NCBI GenBank assembly: GCA_002284615.2
Contig: MU069629.1
Coordinates: 396,729-440,122 of the forward strand
Direction of reading: 5' to 3'
Origin: Dunaliella salina
Lineage: Eukaryota; Chlorophyta; Chlorophyceae; Chlamydomonadales; Dunaliellaceae
DNA: 43,394 bases
Below are positions 6,001-43,394 of this stretch, piece after piece (position 1 is the first letter of the stretch; each line of letters starts with the position of its first letter). The notes beneath the pieces are model-generated. The model worked only from the letters and a program-made list of their open reading frames with translations. It had not been told where the DNA came from and ran no database searches. The translations under genes and the position numbers were made by a program.

Positions 6001-9000
6001 ATGTGCTTTGAGCACTACACAAGGCAGCTGTTTGAACTGGCAGTCGTTTTGAAGAATAACCCACACCGATTTGTGAAACAAAGAAACGTCCGTGCCTGCC
6101 TTTTCCCCATGTTCCCCTTAGGGGCAGCCCTGAACCAGGCAGAGAAAAGAGGAGACGCGCGGCCTACGTGCAGACCCCTCCACCCCCAATACAGATGCAA
6201 CCCACCCTGTCTTCGTCCTCAACTTCTTCCTTTGCCTCATCCGGTGACGATCAGGTATGTGTGGCAGCCTAGGCTTCCTGACTTCCTTTGCAATACGTAG
6301 TTTTGGATGTGCGCCTTTTATTTGCCTCTCTTTGTTATGCTGTTTTACTTTTCACACACAGGGAAGCAGTGGTTGGGGCTAAGAATAATTGTTATGTGTG
6401 CCACCTCATGCTTTTGCAGACCCTCGACCCATCAGCGCTGGCTGAGATCATCGGACCAGATACAATCCGTGGTCCTTCAGTAGCCAATGGCAGAGTTGGG
6501 CATTCAGCGCAGAGTGTCACGTTGGGGGATGGCATAGGGGTTGTTGTTGAAAACCAGCAGCAGGGTGCGAGGTACCAGAGGGGTGCTTCCAGAGCGGCTA
6601 GTCCTGAAAGCCGCATGGTTGCCCAGAAGCTGGAAGCCATTCTTCGTGGCCTTGAGCTGAAGGGGTTTGGGAGGGGGAAGCCCGAAACAGTGGACAGGCA
6701 CTCGAGCAAGCGGGCTGAACTGCAACAGCTCCATGCACAGGTAAGCTGTGTGCTCGGTGTGTGTTACAGGAGTGAAACAGTCAACTCTTTGGCAAGCGTT
6801 TGAAACAATTACAGGCCCATGCATGTCCTCCTGGAAGGCTTGAGAGCGGGTGGTTGCACTTTCACTCCACAGGAATGCAGCGTTTCCAGGGATGAAAGAT
6901 GAGGAGCCGAAGATGTGCAATGAAGGATGAGGGATGAGGGATAAGAAGCAGAGGATGCAAAATAAAGAATTCGCTGAGGTGGGAGAAAGCAGAGGGTGCA
7001 CAAACAAGAAAGGCTGCCGCAGTGGTGAAGCTGCCCCCCTAACCCTCCCCTCCTAGCTCAAATTGGCTCTGATACAAAAGAGGAAAAAGGAAACTATGTG
7101 GCAGTGAGAAAACTCTCCGCATCAAGTAAGGAAAGGAAAGTGATGTTAGCCTAAGGAAAATCCTCCCTAGCTTCTTTTGACGCCGAGAAAAACATGGTTT
7201 GATCTCCATTTGTTACTGCCGAGGCTCTTTGCAGGCCATCAGCAAGAGAAGAAGTAGAGCAAGGTCGACAAAAGGAAGTCAGCCAGGGTTGGGGTCTTTT
7301 ATGTTGCATGGTGTCTATTTTCATAAATGATCATGGATGGCATGCAGCATGTCACATAAATGAAATAATACCGAGCCTGCTTTGTTTTCACCAGTTTAGG
7401 TCTGCTTTCAGTGGGCCTTGCTGCAAGAGAGATAGATGAATGAATACAATGAGTAGCAGGTTGGGTTAACTATTGTTGGGCCTTCTCCCAAAAATTTCCG
7501 GGGCTGTTGGAGCTCCCAGGGCGCAGTTTTTTGATCCAGGGGTGTCCTTTGTGTACCTTTATACCCCAACCCTCACCCTGAGTTTTGGGAAAAGCCCTCC
7601 TATGTGCGCATGGTGCTAAGGGATAGATGTTGCACTGAATGCAAAGGTGTGGGAAGGAGGTCAAGTTGATTCCATTATGAGACCTAAGTATGCAGGAGAA
7701 CTACTGGCATCACACGAGTGTGTCCTGCACCATAAGGTGGCTGGGAGAAGGGTCTTTGTTCTTTTGTCCCAGGCCAGATCTAGATCTCAAATCCTTCTCC
7801 ATTGCGGCCATCTGAGCTCCATGACCTGGAGAACTGAGTTTGTGAAGTAGATCGGTAAAGGAATGGGGTCAATTGGAGGTCAGTCTGCATTTGTTGAAGC
7901 TGACAGAACTCGATGTTTCCAAAAAGTTCCACTTGATCTTAATTTAGCCATGTCTCAGACACGCCTGGATGATCCCAGACCAAATGTGTCACCTGACCTT
8001 GTCCTTTCGCTATGACAAACTTTTCATCCGGGATCATCCGGGCGCTTTTGAGGAAAGGTTTACAAGGTTTACAAGGTTTACAAGGAAATATAACCTTTTC
8101 AGCCAGATAGAGTGGCTGCCCAGTGTGTTGAAATAAATCCACAAGTTCGGAGGTGAGACAACAAGCCTCAGTATCTTAGTTTTGAAAGAATCGAATTACC
8201 TTCTGAGAACAAGCATTAGAAAAATTGGAAGGGCCTGTAAAATCTAACACTTCTCTGTGTGCGGGAAAGGCAGCAAAAAGATGTGCATACTTTCTTTTAA
8301 GACAACAGAGGAAGTTGCAAGAGCAGAGGAAGATAACATGTTTTCATCCTGCTATTGTTCTGAAGTACATAAAATAACATTGAGGTGCATGTTCATGCCA
8401 ATGAGAAGTTTCAACTCGAAGGTTGGGCATGCAATCGGAAGCAAGCAAAATTTCTCTGCATTTGCCTACCAAGGTCCAGATATAAATACCTAGGAGTGTG
8501 GAAAGGTTTGGCCAAAGCACAATTATGCTTGAAGAGAAGTGCTACTCAGTTGTTGTACTTGGCTAACTTGTCCAAATGAACATGATGTTCAGCCTGATCC
8601 TCAGTTGGCCGCGCGCACCTATGCCTCTTCCATAAATCAACCACAAAATCCCAATAGGTTGGCCTGAGTAAACACAATGTGTGAAGCAGTTGTGCCTTTC
8701 CAATCTTCCTTTTAAAGAAAGGCAGATATGAACTCTGATGCCCAGCACTTCCGAGAAATATTACTTGTGTCAATATCTGCTCTGAGCTCTTCGCGTAAAG
8801 TTATGCTGTTGTAGGCAAGGGAGGCATTATAAAATCTAACAGCGGCTCGAAACCAATAGAACTGCAGTGGTTCAAACCCGCATTCACGCAACACAGACCA
8901 ACTTGGTGCAGTCCTTTTAACTCCAAGGATACACCCGCAAGTAGCCTAACGCGGCGGCATCCAGTTTTTGAGGTAAAACCTGTGGAAGTGCCACACAGTG

Positions 9001-9341: not shown

Positions 9342-9669
9342 TCCACCTCCTCCTGTCGAACGTTCTTTTGGACAATACGCGCCATGCGTAGCAGGAATTT
9401 ATACATGGTTCAGGGGTTCAGGCTATGTACCGGCTCAGAAGCGAATCGGGGATGGGTCATACTTGGCTTTGAGAGTTGCTGTATGTGTATATACTTGGCT
9501 TGTTTTTGACTCCAGCAATGCTCCTATGTACTAATTGCTGCATAAACGTGATTGTGAAGTTGCCAGCCTCGTATCGCATGCGTTTTCATGGCGAGTCTTA
9601 CCATAGAATTTACAACGACCATACTTTCATTATCCCGGAACACATGTATGACTTATCTCAGGCAAATGA
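9342..9669. other. 3' flank of the unknown gene, nothing recognised
   Basis: I found no TGTAA signal, ORF of note or repeat between the stop codon and the hAT-like element. Confidence 0.5.
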
Positions 9670-10068
9670 CGCATTTGTAGGGTACGGCATTTGCATTGCG
9701 TAATACGTAATAGTACGTAATCATTAATGTATGATATGTTACGTAATATCACGTGGCTTTCATGTGGTATCACTTTTTCTTTGCAAATGTGAAAATCACA
9801 CCCCGAAGTTCAAGCTGATGTGCTCGGAGCTCTGAGTGCAAAACTCGGATTCATAATCACAGCGATTCCAAGTTTGCGAGGCTGGTTCCAATGAATGGCA
9901 GGTTGCAGTTGAGGAAGGTAGTGATGGGAGGGTTTGACAGCCAATCCTGGAACTCTACCTTACTCTTGAAGAGGCCAAACGGGACTTAGAGAGCTAGGCA
10001 AACGATGCAGTGAAGGCAAGATTTAATGATTTCATGCTCCAGAGCTGCTCGTTTTCAAGCCCTTTGGC

Positions 10069-11449: not shown

Positions 11450-12165
11450 CGGTTTAAATAGTTCCACCGACACCCATGAGAATGGGGTGAATTGCTTTAG
11501 CTTTGGCGCTTATAGATTTATGGAGGTCTGCGTGCTGCTGCTTAGCCGCGTTCAGCTTATGCTCTGGCCTTGTGTCCTCACAGAACTTGATTTCTACTAG
11601 GTGCACAAGACGTTCGTGCACAAGAAGTTCATGGGATCGCCTCACAGGGCTAGTTCTTGTGGTCCTCTGTGGATGTGCGCAAAGCGTGGTGTGAATGTAT
11701 AGGAGAAACACTGTTAAAAGTTTGCTTGGCATTATAAGGGGTGATCGTAATAGCATCTGGTCAACTTGAGTCCCTTCCTCTCTCGAAGGTCACGAGGGAA
11801 GAGTGGGTTATAGTTCTGTTTGAGACATGCGTAGGCAGCTTGAGGTTGTGTTGTGCAAGTTTAAAATTGCTTCCTATGTCTTCTAGACCAGGCCTGCTCC
11901 CAGAGGGCTGTTGCTAAGTGCTTTCGTAATTATTCTGCCTGCTATATAATGTCTTTCAGTTTTCATGTTGGAGATGATACGGTTCTGGCAGCCTAAGAGC
12001 ATGTGGAGTGCGCTGTCCAATTGATGGCAGCCCGGGAGAGGGCATATTGGTTCAGTAGACCTCTTTAAAACGGACTGCATGTTTTTGATTGTAGAGGGTG
12101 CCTGTGCGATACTGCAGGATGTTGCGCTTCATAGGTACAGAAATGTAGGGCATATTTCTGAAGGC
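11450..12165 (-). pseudogene. Degenerate retroelement C terminus: CCHC knuckle and PD-(D/E)XK nuclease
   Basis: Minus-strand pieces are homologous to the end of the 40148-42394 ORF. LQYRTGTLYNQKHAVRFK aligns with MKYRTDTLYTQSHASNF; CPLPGCHQLDSALHMLLGC is the CCHC knuckle; HLVEIKFCEDTRP aligns with HLVELKFCPDTNP, holding the E-x-K pair of the nuclease; and HPILMGVGGTI aligns with HTILIGVGGTIY. At least two frame changes and several stops are present. RNase H and methyltransferase-like parts are absent, so this is a 5'-truncated, diverged copy. Confidence 0.75.
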
Positions 12166-34384: not shown

Positions 34385-34650
34385 TAGGCCAAGTTTGCAG
34401 AGAGGATCAATAGTGTAGGGATTGACAAGCTTACGAAACAATACCCAGGGATGCTCTTTAAACTCATCTTCAAAGCATTCGCATGCCATGTTGCTTGCTG
34501 GCTATTCTGGAAAACATTTATGACAATGATGAGTACATCTTGGTGGATGGGTGAAAGCGAGCACATGTGCATCCTAGACTAGGGGTTAAGCAAGGCTGTT
34601 TATTGTCTCCTCTGCTATTTTCCTTATATACTAATAAGGAAAATGTGTCA
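34385..34650 (+). mobile_element. LINE reverse-transcriptase fragment
   Basis: The plus frame contains AYETIPRDAL (motif A region), a stop, then LLAILENIYDNDEYILVDG, a stop and LGVKQGCLLSPLLFSLYTN, the canonical LINE RT block with QGC-LSPLLF. The catalytic YxDD part is cut off at about 34650, where an unrelated APE fragment begins, so a second LINE appears to have inserted here. Confidence 0.7.
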
Positions 34651-34654
34651 TAAA

Positions 34655-37600
34655 CTCTCAGCCCTGTACCCCCATCCTCATGGGTGACATGAATGCCACG
34701 TCCTGTAACAGTGACAGAAGTAGCCAAGCTGCCTACCAGCAAGACACCCTGTACGGACATTTCTTACAGAACAAGGAGCTCATCCCAATTGACACAAATC
34801 TCCACGAACGGCCTGGCCTTTCTGCTCATGCACCTTCGCAAATGCAGATGGTAAAAATTCCTACACAAACAGCCGAATAGATGACATACTTTTGTTTGCT
34901 TTCACTCGGAACCACCCTCACCTGTTCTGCTCTCTTCATGATACGGGACACAAACACAGCGATCACTTGCCCTTGATTGCTACCATTCCTGTCAGCAGCC
35001 TCTGCACAACAATCAAAAACTTGCCCCCTAGCCTCAGCAAACCCAAGCCTGAAAAGGTCCTCACCCGCCCTATTTCAAACCATGACCGAGAAAAACTTCA
35101 ACATGCCCTGCTTGACCCATCCTACCCAGCCCACAACATGCTCTGCCATATCCTTCACAAGCTGAATCCTATGCATCAAGACGCATTCAATCACCTCAAC
35201 CAGCTCGAATTCACTTGTGCCAAACTCCCAAACAGGCTCAATGACCTCCGTGGAAAATCCGCCAGAGCAGCTGTCGAGGATCTTGCAACTGACATTGTCA
35301 ACCTACTCCAGGAATGCCACAACACTGCACTTACAGTCTGCAGTGCCAAAACAAAAACAACAAATAACAGACATTTCAAACCCAGGCGTATTAACAAACG
35401 CCGCAAATATCTCTGTCACATGCTAAAGCAGTTGCGCTACTTGTTAAGACAAAGGTCGCTCCTCCAGAGCACCCAGAGCCTTCAAGAACTCCTCTTGCGC
35501 AATAAACTTAGCCCCAGCCTGCGACAGGCCCTCAAAACACTGTGCAATTTCCTGAAAAAGGAAAGGCAAAACAAATGCTCCTCCAACCCGCCCCCCCTTG
35601 ATCAAATTAAATTCACCTATCATGAAATCAAGCAAGAAATCCACATTATAGACATGTCACACAGTGACAAGTCTCAGCAGAAAGCAAAGAAGGCCCAGCA
35701 AAAAGCCATTGCCAAACATCCATCCCAGGCTAATCAGCAAATTTTCAAAGCCTCCCATAGCCAGCCCTCCAACCTCTTGGCCTTAGAAGATAAGCGCACC
35801 AATGTAAATCCAAATCCAAATCCAAATCTAAGCGCACCAAGACAGTCCACACAGAACCCAACAAAATTGCAAACATCATAGAAGACTTCTTCACGAAAAG
35901 CATAATGGCTCCCAGTATCAAAACAGGGAGATATTTGCCCAGTGACTCTCAGGCCAAGTGGGATTATCCATGGTCCAGCAGTCATAATTATGACTCTTTC
36001 AAACTCGAAACGCCCATCACCAGAGAGGAAACCACGACAAACTGCAAGTAAAAATGGCTCCATAGCTCTATCCTTGAAAAATGTAATTTTCACGGCTGTA
36101 TTAAGTGCCTAACTAAGAACAAATCTCCAGGTCCAGATGGAATTGTCAATGAGCTCCTTAAAGCCTTTACAACACAAAGACATCCTCCACAAGCTTTTCA
36201 CTATCATGTGGACCACAGGAATTACTCCTAGAGCTTGGAAAGTTAGCGACACGATTCTTATCCACAAACAAAAGGGACCAGAGACCGATATTTCTTCATA
36301 CAGGCCAATAGGCCACGCCAATACTCTCTGTAAGCTCTGGACGCGCTTGATAACCAACACTGTATGAATATGCAGAAGAGCACTCCATTCTCAGTGACAA
36401 GCAAGCTGGATTCCGCAAAAAGAGAGACACAATACAGCAATTACAAACTTTAATCATGGCTCTAGGAGATGCAAAGATATTTAACCAAGATATCTATGCC
36501 CTCATTGTGGACTTTACCTCTGCTTTCAATACCACTGACCATGACAAGGTACTCATTATTATGTACGACCTGGGTTTCCCCACAGATGCTATTGATGTGG
36601 TCAAAAACCTTTACCACCAAGCGAACACACGAGTTAGGCTCCCTACAGGAGACTACACCTCTGAAATCCCTGTAGAGAGGGGAACCATACAAGGAGACAC
36701 ACTTTCTCCCTTCCTCTTCCTTATCTACATCGAGCCCCTGCTCCGCTGGCTACATGTTGGTAACCAAGGTTACACACATGCATGCACCCCTTCCGCTTCT
36801 TCACCACAAGAAAAAAATAGAAACACAATAAGTAGTGGGGCCTTTGCTGATGACCTCATTTTTTAATGAAAACATTTCAACACCTCCAGCTTCAAGCCAA
36901 GAAACTTACCCTCTATACACCTCATCATCTCTGGAAACAAAACCAAGGTTACCTGCATCCCGCACAGCGAAGAAAGCACACTGCTGCGCAGCAACACAAA
37001 TATGTCAGATTTCACCCAACACTTACTTATTGGAAGAATTTTGGTACAGGGCCAACCAGCCCAATTCATGCGCCCTGAACCTTTCCGGCACCTGGGTGTC
37101 TTAATAACCATGGACCTCAACTGGTCTCACCAGCTGCAGAGTATGACCCACAAACTCCCTGACAAGTTACAGCTCTTGAACAATCATGTGCTAGCCCAAA
37201 ACAAACATTAGGTATATTGTGCACTGCTGTTATGCCTAGCATAGATTATGCCTTCCCTGTCACACCATGCTCACAGGCAAATTTGGAACACTGGGACACC
37301 TCTTTACTCTCTACCATCAAAAAGAAATTTGGACTATGGTCAAAAACTTGCACAGCACTCCTTCATGAAGATTAACAGAATTTCGGCCTCGGATATACAT
37401 CTATGACAATTGAATATCACTACAGGAACGCTGTTGCTCTCACCACTAGCCTGAATGACAAGTCAAGACATGGCAGGATCACCAACCTGTTATTATGCTG
37501 CCAAACTGCTAACCTACAAAACATAGCCAATGGTCTGCTAGGGCCCCAATGTCAAACTCCCAAGTATCCCAATCAAATGCTTAAATACAACCTACGTCCA

Positions 37601-40004
37601 CGACAATGCACCAGTATACCAAGCGGCTTGTAAGTAACATATCAAGGCCAACTTCCCTTCACTGACGCCTTTCAACCTATAGCAAACATCCCCTGGACAC
37701 CAAAAAACCCGTGAACTCCCAAGACTGATTAATTGCATCGTGCATCCTCTCATGAAGCTGGCATTTCAAGTTTCTTCTCTATTCTATCAAATGAGCACAC
37801 ACATGTCTTAAATGCCCAAGCTCTGAATTCCTACCACCACACCATCAAGAAAAAGCAAACTACCGCTCTCAACAGGCTTGCTTCTCTTGCAAACTGCAAC
37901 AATCTCAACCAATCCACAATTGACCACACATTTACAAACACTGACGCCTACCCAAACAAAACTTCAGGACTCAGACAAATAAATCGCAATTCTTTACACC
38001 GACTCACCCATTTGCACCGCTACTGCAATGATTCGAGAGGACACCTCACATTGTGGACTCGGTGTGTCATCAATATCTGTGGAATACCATAGGCGCATGG
38101 CCCTTGCCCTCTAGAAGACCCCTCAAACAGACACCGCAGTGTCACCCTAGGCCTCCTCACGATGCAAGTAAAACACTTGAAGGACCTAGCCACAGAATAC
38201 CTTACAAAGAGAGAATGAAAAAATCACCGCATTAAGCGCCAACTTAACTACTGCATGAGAGCCTGCCAGCTCATCAGTGTCTACTCAAGCAAGCTCCACC
38301 TCACAAAACAAAACATAAGCCTGTTTCTGGATGACTTAAGATCATTGATGAGGCTTTCTCCCTCCATGATCCCCCGCCCACTCTTTCCCAACGCTTATTG
38401 CCTGTATCACCAAACCCCTCCTAAGTTTGGACATCCACGGACTCCATGACCTTACAACCAATAGCGGAACCCACATAATCAGTGTGGCACAACTCAAGAA
38501 CAAGCACTCAAAAATTACAACAAAAAGATAAATAGCTCTAAACAGGCTAGCAGCCTTAGTCAACCTACCTCCTGATGTACAATTAACCCAGGACATCATA
38601 CATAACATTCTTGGAGACAAAAGTACTGCAGCTAACACTCTCCCCAGATACCGCCAAATCAACAACAGCCACATCAGCGAGCTGGTTAACACACACTTCA
38701 ACAGTTCATCTCCAGACTCACCACTCCCAGGAACTATCCCCCTAACTGCACACACAACACAACCAGTGCCCCCAACACAACCCCGCTCCAGGACCCACTA
38801 CACACACACGCTTACAGGCCGCCGCATCAATCTGACAAATACTTCAATCACTGCCCCCATCCAAAACCCTAACAAAGCAACACAGAATCAGGAGGCCAAC
38901 CCAGCAGAAATAAATACCAATCAATCCATCACCTCCTTAAACACAAAAGAGACAATCTCCCTGAACACCACCTCCCTAAACACTACCTCCTCTAACATCA
39001 CTTCCTAGAGCACCACTTCCCTGACCACCACTTCTCACAGCACGCAAGGGACCTCCCCCACACCTTCAGAAGAGGCCAGCATGAACCCTGGAAACTCAGG
39101 ATACCACACAAGAGAACGTACAAGGAATCACAACCCAAAGGAGCCCCAACAACGCTGACAATAATCCTCAGGGAGCCGTCAACGAACATGATGTGCCTCC
39201 CACCCAAGCTGTACCACTGAATACCCCGTCTCAAAGTACCATAAATCCAACAGAAGAACCACCTAGCAAAAGGACTCGATCTAAAAGCAATCAAACCATA
39301 ATAACCACAGGAGCAACCTCCTTGATACAAAACACAACTCAAAACTACTTACTGCTCCTTACTCAGGAAATACAGCAAGGAAACACAGAGACCCCATATT
39401 CCGCCACCACACCCACGCAAACACTCGATATAACACCAACAATACCCCTTTGCCCCCAAGAACTCCCTCAACCACCCCCTCCAGCAGGAAAAGAGCTGCT
39501 TCTGCCAACCCTACACTCCCCGATACTCAACCTAACCATCCTAATACCTCAAACACATGTAACTCACAGGCTCTGTCTCCCCCCAACGAGCCACCCAGCA
39601 AACGCGCGCGATCCAAGTCACAATCAAGCTCCCTCCACACACAAAGCACCTGTAACCAAACAACATCGATGTTGTTTGGATATCCAATCCCCTGGCCTTA
39701 CGACACCAAAGCGACAACCCACCTCCCACTCACCATCAACCTAGCCCCCCTTCCATGCCTCCAACCAACACTCTCACTTCCTCTAGCTAAGGCACACAAA
39801 ACAGCCGACAGGAAAGAAAGAGGAGAAAGCTTCTTGAAACTAATACAAACCTCTCCATCCCTAGTATCTCTCCACTGGNCCAAACAGCCCAACACACAGA
39901 GCTCTGGCACTACAAGCAAAATAAATTGAGAAAGCTAGCAGAGGAAACGACCCCCCTAGACGCAATTAATGCTATCTACAACTACGACCTAAATGATATC
40001 ACAC
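34655..40004 (+). mobile_element. Decayed APE/RT LINE
   Basis: Pieces appear in LINE order over about 5.3 kb. APE endonuclease: ILMGDMNATS (34675), NSYTNSRIDDILLF and HSDHLPLIATIP (to about 34985), split by a frameshift near 34850. A linker ORF follows (34892-35881) with R/K-rich parts. RT: KSPGPDGIVNELLKAF (36121), ISSYRPIGHANTLCKLW, LIVDFTSAFNTTDHDK, GTIQGDTLSPFLFLIYIEP and FADDLIF (36840-36863), followed at once by a stop, then FRHLGVLITMDLNW (thumb). Beyond 37.2 kb only broken, Thr/Asn/Pro-rich frames remain; EPPSKRTRSKS and EPPSKRARSKS near 39260 and 39590 mark an internal duplication. At least six frameshifts or stops make it inactive. Confidence 0.8.
35805..35833. repeat. (AAATCC)n stretch inside the LINE
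   Basis: TGTAAATCCAAATCC-type units, reading NPNPNPNL in the linker ORF. The same hexamer forms the 3' tail of the LINE copy at 33851-33880. Confidence 0.8.
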
Positions 40005-40147
40005 ATAAAGAAAAGAAAAGAAAAGTCTACGCAAGCCAAAGGCCACGTGCATTAAGGGAAGAACCTTTAACAAAAGTTAGAGGCCTCACCAGGAGGCCCT
40101 CCACCTAAGCTAGACAAAACTAGCCTAGGAGAGAGCAAGAGACAGAA
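40005..40147 (-). mobile_element. 3'-terminal region of the minus-strand retroelement, with (CTTTT)n tail
   Basis: Read on minus, this follows the stop codon of the 748-codon ORF: CTTGCTCTCTCCTAGGC, TAGGTGGAGGGCCTCCTGG, GAGGCCTCTAACTTTTGTTA, then GCGTAGACTTTTCTTTTC. It recurs alone at 12300-12510, including the tail, which supports this as the element's true 3' end. The plus LINE abuts it tail to tail. Confidence 0.65.
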
Positions 40148-42394
40148 CTAATGGGAATCTGGAGGATTGCTAGCCATGCCCCTGAGCGCTCGGACTCTCC
40201 TTCTTCCATCCTCAGCCGCCGCCGCGCGCCCAGCAAACCCTCTCCCAGATGCCCTCTGAAAGCAAAGTGCATGTCTAGTGTTAATGATGGTGGATAATCT
40301 TTGGATGGCATGGTCCCTGAGCTTGGATGCTAGTGATTTGGCTTTCTGTTTGGTTAGACCCAGATTTATTAGAGATGAAATTGTTAGCTCATTGTAAATT
40401 GTGCCACCCACACCAATTAAGATGGTATGCGAAGTCACTTTGTTGTTCCTGTTTGGGTTTCTTAAGTTGCGTGTTTTAAGTCTAGTTATGGTGTGGGAAT
40501 GTTGAGTCCGTGCACGTTCCAGAGTGATGAAGGGATTTGTGTCAGGGCAGAATTTAAGTTCGACAAGGTGAATATCTCTATCATTTGGGGGGATATTGGT
40601 AGGATCAAGGTGGGCTTGTCTGCCTGGGATGGGGCGCACAAAAAGAGCATCAGGGCGGCTTTGGTGCCGAGCAGGTGAGGCAATGTCATTTGGGAAAACC
40701 CAATCTGGAATAGCTCGAGAGGTGTTTTCAGGGATTTGTATGCCTTGATCCAGAAGTCTGTCATGATTGCAGCTATCCATGCTAATGAGGGATGAGCCAT
40801 ACCGGCCTTTACTCAGGGTTTCTACACAGAGACTAAGGGCCGCATGGTGTCTGTTGGTGTGCATCCCACTCATTGTTGGGTTGGTACACCTGAGCAGAAC
40901 GTGATTGATGCTGTCCGTATTTGCACAGAGTGGGCATCTAACAGAACTGGAAAAATTGAAGTTGGAGGCATGACTCTGTGTGTACAGTGTATCCGTTCGA
41001 TACTTCATAAGATTTATTTGCTGTTTAAGGGTTACCTTTGGGCTTTTCCAGAAGGAGTTGCTGATCTCCTTGTTTGCAAGTTGAGGGGCTGGGTTGTACA
41101 CTTCAGTGTCGGCATTGGCGGTGGGTGGTGTGGCATCGTTAAGCTTCTGCCATCTCTGGTAGGGGTACCCAGAGGTGTCAGCAGAGCCAAGCTCGTGTTT
41201 CTCGTGCATGTGTGTTTTAAGTTTGCCGCTCAGGCTGGTGAGATAGTGCATCGGAAGCGCGTGGTAGCGGTGCATGCCATCATTTTGTGTGGAAGAGGTC
41301 TTCAATGAAAGCCAATAGAAATTGTGGAAAGGGTCCCTGGCATCTGGAAGTGCAATGGCGTGAGAGAGGGCTGCGGTGCGAGCGCAAGCGTCGGCCCCTT
41401 CATTTCCTATGATGCCAGAGTGGGCTTTGACTTTGTAAAAATGGATAGGGTGAGGGGAGTGCTCTAATATGGTTGACATTGTATGAATGAGCTCTGCATG
41501 TAGGTGATACCTCATGCGCATCGGGTTAAGGGTTTGATTAGAAATCTGAAAAAGGCATGATGCACTATCAGTGGCAATCTCAGTTTGCTCGTGTTGGAGT
41601 GCCACAAGGCTACCCACAAGTTCTGCTCTGGTGATGGTATTGGTTGGCCCATGGCCATTGGGTTTTATGTGCAGTTGCAAGTGTTGGGAGGGTGCAGCAG
41701 TGTCACTTCCTGGTTTGTAAACACCTGAACCGGAAAGGGGTGAGGAATCGTCATCTTTGTGCTTAATCACACTGCCATCAGTGTAGGTGATTCCCCTCCA
41801 GTCCTGGACTTTAGGTGTGAACATCTTTTTGAAGTTGGCAGGGGTGAGTTCTGCTCTTTCCTGAGGGCACTTGTGTGAGCAGCTATGGGTGTCAGGGGGG
41901 AGTGATTGGAATTTCTGTTTCCAAGTATTTGATGCTAGGTGTTGGTGGGTACGCAGCGGCGTGACAGTATTTGGAGAATCCAAAGGTAGCCAACAAGCTT
42001 CTGGTGTAACTTGCTNTACATCTTGCTGGAGGGATTGAAACCAGTCTTTGTATGCGGTATCTAGTATTTGTCTGGCGTTAGGGTTCCACACAACGATGAG
42101 TTGCATAGGATAGGAAGGCGGAGTAGGATTGGTGATGGTATCAAACCAGTNTTGTGGTGCTTGGAATTGGATTTTCCTTGCAGGGAATCTGGCAAGAACT
42201 TTTGCAGTATCTGGGTANTGGCTCAGCCAGCTCATATACGCATTACAGCTGAAGCCTCTCCAGTGGGGCAGGAGCATGAAGGTGGCAACTGGATCTGTGG
42301 AATGGAGGGAGGAGTGCACTGCGTGGCGTAGGAGTTTAAACATCATTTCGTCAACGTGTGGAGGATGGCAGAAGGAGAAGCCAGTGTAGCGCAC
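40148..42394 (-). CDS. Retroelement polyprotein: PCIF1-like methyltransferase region, RNase H, CCHC knuckle, PD-(D/E)XK nuclease
   Basis: 748 open codons; numbering is from the first Met, but coding probably begins upstream. Residues ~1-105 resemble the PCIF1-type adenine-N6 methyltransferase core: TGFSFCHPPHVDEMMFKLL, VATFMLLPHWRGFSCNAY and MQLIVVWNPNA. The expected N/S-PP-F/Y motif reads HPPH here, so activity is doubtful. RNase H spans ~200-340: TDGS (D206), AEL (E258), ATDSASC (D276), KAHSGIIGNEGAD (H325, D335), a complete catalytic set. The CCHC knuckle is at 487-503 (CPLCANTDSINHVLLRC). The restriction-like nuclease spans ~580-665: RPDALFV (D582) and HLVELKFC (E612, K614), then HTILIGVGGTIY. 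The last ~35 residues (RASGRGFAGRAAAAEDG) run into GC-rich and 3'-terminal DNA and may be spurious. No RT lies in the window on this strand. Three ambiguous bases (42016, 42151, 42218) lie in the ORF. Dualen/RandI-like LINEs combine such nucleases with RNase H. Confidence 0.8.
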   Translation of the reverse strand: MRYTGFSFCHPPHVDEMMFKLLRHAVHSSLHSTDPVATFMLLPHWRGFSCNAYMSWLSXYPDTAKVLARFPARKIQFQAPQXWFDTITNPTPPSYPMQLIVVWNPNARQILDTAYKDWFQSLQQDVXQVTPEACWLPLDSPNTVTPLRTHQHLASNTWKQKFQSLPPDTHSCSHKCPQERAELTPANFKKMFTPKVQDWRGITYTDGSVIKHKDDDSSPLSGSGVYKPGSDTAAPSQHLQLHIKPNGHGPTNTITRAELVGSLVALQHEQTEIATDSASCLFQISNQTLNPMRMRYHLHAELIHTMSTILEHSPHPIHFYKVKAHSGIIGNEGADACARTAALSHAIALPDARDPFHNFYWLSLKTSSTQNDGMHRYHALPMHYLTSLSGKLKTHMHEKHELGSADTSGYPYQRWQKLNDATPPTANADTEVYNPAPQLANKEISNSFWKSPKVTLKQQINLMKYRTDTLYTQSHASNFNFSSSVRCPLCANTDSINHVLLRCTNPTMSGMHTNRHHAALSLCVETLSKGRYGSSLISMDSCNHDRLLDQGIQIPENTSRAIPDWVFPNDIASPARHQSRPDALFVRPIPGRQAHLDPTNIPPNDRDIHLVELKFCPDTNPFITLERARTQHSHTITRLKTRNLRNPNRNNKVTSHTILIGVGGTIYNELTISSLINLGLTKQKAKSLASKLRDHAIQRLSTIINTRHALCFQRASGRGFAGRAAAAEDGRRRVRALRGMASNPPDSH

Positions 42395-42473
42395 AGAGAG
42401 AGCGTTTTTGTGTGCCCCAAAGACTTAGTCTCAGTAGTTTGTGCTGAAATAGGTGTCGTAGGTATTTTCAAAA

Positions 42474-43067
42474 TCAAGAGGGCTGGAATACCTCTCCACT
42501 GCGGGAAGGAGTAATAGGCACGTTTGAACTGAAAACCTGTTTGCTCTGAGCGAATTTTTTTTTAGCCTTTTGGCAAGAGAGCAAACCCATAATTTCGGTT
42601 GCTGGATCCTGGACAGGGGGCTGGATGGTGTCATGGATGCCTGCCCTTTTGGCTGCTTCGTAGGCTTCAAGCAGGGTTGTGAGCCTTTTTTTAGTGAGCA
42701 TGCCCATGCATTTACCATTGGCATTGTAGATACAGGCGCATTCAGAGGTGGTTTCCTCTGGCATTTGTGTTGGCATGGCAACCTCATCAGTTGTGTCCAA
42801 GTGAAGAGTCTCCTTCATGAGGTCAACACTTCTAATGATTATTTCACATTGCCATGTTGGCATGATATCTGTCTGGGGATTCGTAGGTTGGAAGTCAAAG
42901 GTGACATTCTTGCGAATTGCGTAGCCGGTGGTTGAGAGCCATGGAGATGCAGATAGGCTCTGAGGATTGCCTTCAAAGCCTTGGTTGACAAGATTGTCCA
43001 GGTCTATTTTAATGGCCAAGGGGCCTTCTATTTCCTCTGGTCGCTCCTCCGCGTCAAAGGCTTGCAC
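42474..43067 (-). CDS. Upstream part of the minus-strand retroelement ORF (frameshifted from the next)
   Basis: A 197-codon frame: MQAFDAEERPEEIEGPLAIK at the start, then GYAIRKNVTFDFQP and KCMGMLTKKRLTTLLEAYEA. It ends in SRSGEVFQPS. In the neighbouring frame the sequence continues as ERYSSPLDFENTYDTYFS, two stops, and VFGAHKNALSVRYTGFSF, which joins the 748-codon ORF. That connecting stretch is what one expects just before a PCIF1-type methyltransferase motif, so the two ORFs are one gene broken by a frameshift (about 42500) and stops at about 42429 and 42423. The first ~150 residues have no recognised domain. Confidence 0.65.
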   Translation of the reverse strand: MQAFDAEERPEEIEGPLAIKIDLDNLVNQGFEGNPQSLSASPWLSTTGYAIRKNVTFDFQPTNPQTDIMPTWQCEIIIRSVDLMKETLHLDTTDEVAMPTQMPEETTSECACIYNANGKCMGMLTKKRLTTLLEAYEAAKRAGIHDTIQPPVQDPATEIMGLLSCQKAKKKFAQSKQVFSSNVPITPSRSGEVFQPS

Positions 43068-43394
43068 ATGAGCATCCAGGTCTGGATGTATTTCAGTGTT
43101 TTATTTTTTGTTTTGGCGAAACCCAGACTTCAATACTTTTAGGGGCATCCCCTCTCCTGAGTAGTGCCATTTTATTACTTCCCCCCCCCCCCAGCCTGTA
43201 GGCCTCGGCAGGACAAGGTTATAAGTTTTCTCCCTTGCATTGCTGCATTGTGTTGTGCCAGCTATCCTGGAACTGGCTGCTCACACCATGCTTCAGGTGA
43301 TTCTTGTATTCACGACCACTGTGGCCTTTCTTTACTTTTGACATTGCATTTCATTTCTTTTACTTTCTTGCCCTTGGGCCTTTAAGCGGGGGGG
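43068..43394. other. Window end, nothing firm
   Basis: The frame NTEIHPDLDAHV continues leftward into the retroelement, but a stop precedes it at about 43110. A poly-C run (43179-43192) and a terminal poly-G follow. The RT expected upstream of RNase H is not visible. Confidence 0.4.

Follow-up and report, generated by a model that had tools for sequence, protein, structure and literature searches.

A broken LINE copy at the end of the contig

We analysed a stretch of 43,394 nucleotides from the Dunaliella salina genome (contig MU069629.1, positions 396,729 to 440,122 of assembly GCA_002284615.2), referred to below as the window. Its minus strand carries, at 40007..43092, the 3' half of a long interspersed nuclear element (LINE) in which a methyltransferase (MT) domain of the PCIF1/CAPAM type precedes an RNase H domain, a CCHC zinc finger and a restriction-like endonuclease (REL). 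This copy is 5'-truncated and frame-broken. Its homology to dispersed copies stops at 40007-40010 on the 3' side and, in mid-element, at 43089-43092 on the 5' side, with differing flanks past the common 3' end, which makes it slightly longer than the interval 40148-43067 given by a first-pass annotation made from the sequence alone. The minus-strand motifs named in that annotation (ERYSSPLD, FGAHKNAL, GFSFCHPPHVDEMM, ATFMLLPHWRG and LIVVWNPNA, then RNase H, the CCHC finger and RPD...E-L-K) were all found at their places and in that order.

The upstream part of the protein lies in a single open frame at 42474..43092 (open reading frame (ORF) 42474-43100; 86.6-88.2% identity to the host loci L006, L024 and L028). 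The MT domain occupies 42071..42737 in two frames, and at 42356..42367 the letters HPPH replace the NPPF catalytic tetrad of PCIF1, as placed by the family alignment A3 and its profile alignment to 6irv/6irx. RNase H follows at 41369..41788 with readable D-E-D-H-D residues (PF00075, E 8.2e-10), then a zf-RVT-like CCHC finger at 40883..41074 (PF13966, 24.9 bits, below the 27.5 cut-off), the REL of PD-(D/E)XK type at 40253..41044, whose profile match takes in the finger, and a 3' tail of (CTTTT)n at 40007..40025. The MT is interrupted by a frame shift near 42490 and by stops at 42433-42431 and 42427-42425, right before FGAHKNAL; the window copy is dead. No target-site duplication was found for it.

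Comparison of the window protein with the PDB by phmmer gave no PCIF1 up to E 1, and only profiles reached PCIF1. Pfam alone scored the window MT at 13.7 bits (E 0.047), under the cut-off, while the family profile matched it with 120.7 bits (E 1.7e-35) and 39.8 bits (E 8.9e-11) in the two frames; the family profiles of RNase H and REL reached 185.8 and 234.8 bits. Related copies in the host genome scored 35.9-47.3 bits against PF12237 (cut-off 31.1), and the same search of 14 control genomes gave no match. The domain has the core fold of PCIF1/CAPAM, and we regard its identity as PCIF1-type as close to certain. The first-pass proposal of this fold, followed by RNase H, a CCHC knuckle and a PD-(D/E)XK nuclease, was borne out.

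Host copies and relatives in green algae

The 285-Mb host assembly was searched, and loci were fetched by PF12237 score and open frames, so that they form a non-random sample. Among the 36 MT places in these loci, 32 had RNase H next to the MT on the same strand (31 of 35 when a duplicate is left out, one identical MT place being contained in both L007 and L016, which are both also in the dN/dS set described below). When at least 1500 bases were available downstream, RNase H was next to the MT in 22 of 24 places. A methyltransferase-like part that did not stay beside RNase H in other copies had been named as fatal to the first-pass proposal, and the two domains do adjoin. Pieces of a reverse transcriptase (RT), for which the same annotation proposed to look upstream, were found upstream on the same strand at 7 of the 36 places (L015, L016, L019, L021, L023, L024 and L028), a count limited by the fact that L001-L008 extend just 1.5 kb upstream. 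In L024 the RT, a finger region, MT, RNase H and REL all run in one direction.

The genome was also searched with an RT query (74 of 3431 candidates scored, RT places taken on contigs C1-C56). Of the 16 RT places, 7 showed the motif HPIY 2.4-2.8 kb downstream on the same strand and 2 more at 3.6 and 5.7 kb; in the other 7 this motif, the only one counted, was absent within 8 kb. At none of the 16 did it lie within 8 kb upstream or on the opposite strand (about 0.0004 per place expected by chance). The element has the marks of a LINE: an RT in the same element, and dispersed, 5'-truncated copies with a common 3' end and a short-repeat tail. Of the 8 other 3' ends compared, 7 showed a similar CTTTT-type tail followed by different flanks, L023 being the exception; among those 7 two ends, both in L015, have one flank in common. 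These two ends (7519-7856 and 9612-9901) lie about 2.1 kb apart, and their common flank suggests duplication after insertion.

Protein searches returned 39 proteins with an MT, RNase H and REL query, 90 in another search and 137 with an RT query (best 120 of 137 listed). APE endonuclease, RT, MT, RNase H and REL occur together in 52 of the 233 proteins in hand, in the same order in all of them, so that two endonucleases, an RT, the MT fold and RNase H stand within one protein. The family plan reads APE, RT, finger region (a PHD finger in several), MT, RNase H, CCHC finger and R2-type REL. Among the matches listed for the RT query were 109 new proteins, 77 of them with at least 900 amino acids after the RT, and the MT follows the RT in 77 of 77. 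It was found in all 77 also by a profile built before the RT search (lowest score 39.4 bits, P0231). This search is independent of the MT, yet its query came from an MT-bearing element. In the 32 shorter proteins (less than 900 amino acids after the RT) the MT was present in 10; the 22 of 109 without it include none with 900 amino acids past the RT and are therefore taken to be truncated or wrongly modelled. In 466 reversed or shuffled proteins the family profiles matched nothing. Distances of RT and MT correlate (Mantel r 0.55, 0 of 999 permutations, 66 thinned proteins). The MT, which might have passed for an oddity of one element, is thus very likely a core part across this LINE clade.

Where the host is named, proteins with an MT match come mostly from green algae: Dunaliella, Haematococcus, Cymbomonas (202 and 216 bits), Nannochloris (P0123, 117 bits, divergent) and Parachlorella (P0222, 39.5 bits, partial). 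Two other labels, Pelagomonas for P0004 and an Agrobacterium metagenome-assembled genome for P0020, may be contamination. The closest named relatives of the window protein are D. salina proteins with 77-89% identity over 9-25% of the query. Four D. salina gene models (P0003, P0010, P0026 and P0031, among them an Hsp70 and a RIC1 model) hold element pieces inside predicted proteins, probably as gene-model errors or exonised fragments.

Pfam matches above the cut-off were obtained for APE (PF03372) in P0131, P0132, P0133, P0136 and P0148, and RNase H (PF00075) was present in the window and in relatives; precomputed Pfam already lists the domain co-occurrence for many of these proteins. In the finger region PHD (PF00628) was above the cut-off in P0005, P0040, P0045 and P0148 and below it in P0009 and P0013, while the host copies L013 and L014 gave just zf-RING_15, below the cut-off. 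Stretches around the finger look chromodomain-like; this had no Pfam support and we do not claim it. The part of the P0006 model that corresponds to the CCHC finger of the window copy aligns with R2. Besides the common plan, a cytosine-5 (C5) DNA methyltransferase (PF00145) follows the MT in P0117 and P0122, and P0225 lists one too, by precomputed Pfam only, so that a single LINE protein holds two nucleic-acid methyltransferases of different kinds. Many Haematococcus lacustris proteins between P0155 and P0233, together with P0148, P0195, P0200 and P0208, list Josephin (PF02099, a family with a deubiquitinase fold); in P0148 the Josephin match lies before the APE with 25.1 bits, below the cut-off of 26. 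P0184 lists the Ulp1-type peptidase family PF02902.

The window holds further pieces of the element. A second copy with APE, RT and linker lies on the plus strand at 34638..40006 (start approximate) and ends where the 3' end of the minus copy begins. Its RT, at 36082..37372 in broken frames, matched PF00078 (E 9e-15) and the family RT profile with up to 263.4 bits. Distant APE queries in tblastn found no APE in the window or in 28 of 29 loci, L009 being left out; the family profile later detected APE in the host as C-terminal pieces only, before the RT of the plus copy at 34665..34975 (E 1.5e-11 and 1.5e-4), in an ORF of L013 (E 3.7e-6) and weakly in L030 (7.5 bits). The segment 43093-43394, up to the contig end, had no match to the continuation of the plus copy or to any locus. 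A third piece, REL only and in broken frames, lies at 11457-12144 on the minus strand.

The tetrad and the constraint on the domain

We then counted the tetrad in the host genome. The form GFSFC-HPPH was present at 377 places and GFSVC-HPIY at 611, together 988 places with histidine first, while the relaxed form [HNDY]PP[HNDY], HPPH included, gave 462 and the form N-P-x-[YF] 10; the reversed-pattern controls gave 0. These patterns require the flanking GFS..C, and single copies vary (QPDY in L003, RPIY in L015). The counts therefore make histidine in the first place the rule in the host genome and not damage. The first-pass annotation had read HPPH as a possible sign of a dead copy or of a variant motif: the copy is indeed dead, by its frame change and two stops, but its HPPH is no defect of a single copy.

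In the 180 relative rows with the position, NPEY was found in 81 and NVPA in 35, the rest being diverse; the first residue was N in 125 and H in 20. The named NVPA rows are Haematococcus, with many near-copies. NPPF was found in 0 of 180 rows, and the commonest tetrad was N-P-E-Y and not the N/S-PP-F/Y for which the first-pass annotation proposed to check the family consensus. Thinning to 108 rows (below 70% identity) left 54 rows of the active type N/S...Y/F, 18 with H, 35 others and 1 NVPA. The 54 rows were chosen by N/D/S...Y/F/W, so the two middle letters were outside the choice, and these were P in 93% and E in 96%. The E, S, P, L, D and F of ERFASPL...RDQLFGA were kept in 98-100% of the 54 rows. 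Residues aligned to ECFASPL and FG of PCIF1 were kept in 89-100% of the 54 rows and in 82-100% of the H rows.

The MT tree was built from 120 rows without the motif columns by a quick method, and its PCIF1 outgroup branch is long. Active-type and other rows required 10 changes of state on this tree, at least 7 of them forced by starred branches. Dunaliella lies within a 26-row set without the active-type tetrad (support 90), beside the NPEY row P0055 (98, starred), and P0004, labelled Pelagomonas, clusters with the Dunaliella HPPH rows. Because NPEY rows sit nearest the outgroup, the tree suggests that NPEY may be the earlier state, the root and the direction of change being unsure on so long a branch.

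Pairwise ratios of nonsynonymous to synonymous change (dN/dS) among host copies, taken as medians by dS bin with stop codons left out and with two query families that overlap in copies, were 0.31-0.45 for MT, 0.32-0.51 for RNase H and 0.21-0.48 for REL; one RNase H bin of a single pair gave 0.68 and one RT pair 0.29. The constraint on the MT is about as strong as that on RNase H.

Possible functions of the domain and comparison with known systems

In LINEs an APE or R2-type nuclease nicks the target, the RT copies the element RNA in place, and RNase H removes the RNA. We consider it probable that the window copy is the 3' half of a Dualen-like LINE in which the MT is an old, inherited part of the clade core, with NPEY types that methylate and Dunaliella types that bind. 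In NPEY lineages the domain would bind S-adenosylmethionine (SAM) and methylate adenines in the element nucleic acid that this protein holds, the likeliest substrate being RNA in the ribonucleoprotein, before or during target-primed reverse transcription; the methyl groups would mark, stabilise or shield the element RNA. The chances that NPEY-type domains methylate adenine are about even. Nearly all motif places of Dunaliella have H or another residue instead of the catalytic N, while the fold and most presumed SAM-pocket residues persist; classical catalysis has likely been lost there, and the domain would most likely act as a non-catalytic or altered RNA- or DNA-binding module. The first-pass suggestion that the element modifies its own RNA or cDNA may hold for some lineages and is less likely for those of Dunaliella, nearly all of which are without the N. 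A bolder version, which we hold only tentatively, would make the domain a clade-wide ancestral adenine methyltransferase with the new tetrad NPEY, acting on its own RNA or cDNA in the course of retrotransposition and repeatedly turned into a pseudo-enzyme, the 988 Dunaliella places included, that is still constrained.

Several observations weigh against this interpretation. The tetrad is lost in the Haematococcus NVPA rows and in the 35 other rows of the thinned 108, which also keep the E, A and S of ERFASPL much less often (71%, 51% and 69%), and both altered groups are weak at the W of LPAW (33% in the 18 H rows); the weaker residues of the 35 rows fit a loss of SAM chemistry. That the conserved MT residues line the SAM pocket is itself presumed from the alignment. 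The common tetrad is NPEY and not NPPF/Y, so even the lineages that keep the N may be inactive. The aligned region begins at PCIF1 residue 417-428, and no WW domain is listed in the long relatives scanned (P0040, P0045, P0062, P0122, P0131, P0132, P0133, P0144 and P0148, some of them incomplete), so cap specificity is not implied. A text pattern for the nuclease residues (R/K/Y/F-PD...E-x-K) failed in 79 of 174 REL rows, so these residues are not uniform either. The dN/dS of about 0.4 combines the effect of selection on active elements with the neutral decay of dead copies, omits stop codons and reaches 1.1 in single pairs; it therefore speaks for past constraint and not for present activity.

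Loss of function might be taken further, with the MT a non-catalytic nucleic-acid-binding module in every lineage and NPEY a binding loop. The 10 changes of state, with fold and most pocket-type residues unchanged, are as such a module would have it, as are the replacement of the third-place P of the known NPPF/Y enzymes by E and the 988 Dunaliella places with H first (377 HPPH, 611 HPIY). The unselected P and E of the tetrad and the motif residues kept at 98-100% in the 54 rows argue against it: tetrad and ERFASPL...RDQLFGA sites covary, which an active site would lead one to expect, and in amino-methyltransferases the N holds the amine and the Y stacks the base. We consider this account unlikely. 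Slightly less likely still is that the domain actively methylates N6 of adenine in DNA and so marks first-strand cDNA or the fresh insertion, which would serve self-recognition or resistance to silencing, as has been suggested for retrotransposons with a DNMT. The MT adjoins RNase H and REL, which work around cDNA synthesis; P0117 and P0122, and by precomputed Pfam P0225, also carry a C5 DNA methyltransferase; and there are precedents both for C5 enzymes, in LINE, DIRS and Gypsy elements, and for Dam-like enzymes, in DIRS (PMC5890265). However, the closest solved relatives of the MT are RNA cap methyltransferases, and a DNA enzyme does not fit the lineages without N. A chance fusion, or a host gene captured by one element and without a role, would suit the broken window copy and is already contradicted, to the point of being hardly credible, by the MT in all 77 relatives with room for it, the single order shared by all five-domain proteins, the correlated RT and MT distances, median dN/dS well below 1 and the several algal hosts.

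If the preferred interpretation, an inherited MT that methylates in NPEY lineages, is true, a PCIF1-fold adenine methyltransferase as standard equipment of a LINE clade would mean that N6-methyladenosine in RNA or N6-methyladenine in DNA can arise by an independent route encoded by the element, and self-marking of RNA by retroelements would become testable with one protein. With natural N-P-E-Y and altered versions on one scaffold, one can test directly whether the element needs catalysis or binding. A caution also follows: PF12237 matches in algal genomes can be mostly retroelement and not host PCIF1 genes.

PCIF1 moves a methyl group from SAM onto N6 of the adenosine beside the mRNA cap, and its WW domain binds the phosphorylated C-terminal domain (CTD). 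The element MT resembles PCIF1/CAPAM in fold and in the FASPL...FG and NPPF-position landmarks; it differs in standing within a retroelement protein, in its NPEY or degenerate tetrad and in lacking both the part before residue 417-428 in the alignment and a listed WW domain. Without NPPF or WW domain, we class it as a domain of the PCIF1 fold and not as PCIF1. R2 LINEs are not known to have an RNase H, APE or MT. The literature matches listed, with partial coverage that excludes subscription papers, bioRxiv and Repbase, contained no account of a LINE with a PCIF1-type domain, and the word PCIF1 is absent from the main text of PMC5890265 and PMC6338049.

Dualen LINEs are marked by two endonucleases, APE and restriction-like, within a single element and by RNase H (PMC4640811), and are reported in Chlamydomonas relatives, that is in green algal hosts (PMC8226300). 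The present family shares with Dualen/RandI both endonucleases, RNase H and green algal hosts, a likeness of domain content; the link to Dualen-type LINEs proposed at the outset stood up. It may differ by the PCIF1-type MT between RT and RNase H, which the available parts of these two sources do not mention for Dualen, the known elements being compared by description. The retroelement methyltransferases known so far are C5-cytosine or Dam-like enzymes, as far as the available part of PMC5890265 goes. SymbioLINE-Dnmt, SymbioDIRS-Dnmt3 and KnitGypsy-Dnmt3, described there, are likewise retrotransposons with a nucleic-acid methyltransferase, but theirs are C5 cytosine enzymes in other element types, and in SymbioLINE the enzyme is for the most part encoded by an ORF that precedes the RT, unlike the MT here. 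The DIRS elements with Dam-like methyltransferases (same source) likewise join a retroelement to an adenine methyltransferase, although their enzyme is Dam-like and DIRS encode a tyrosine recombinase.

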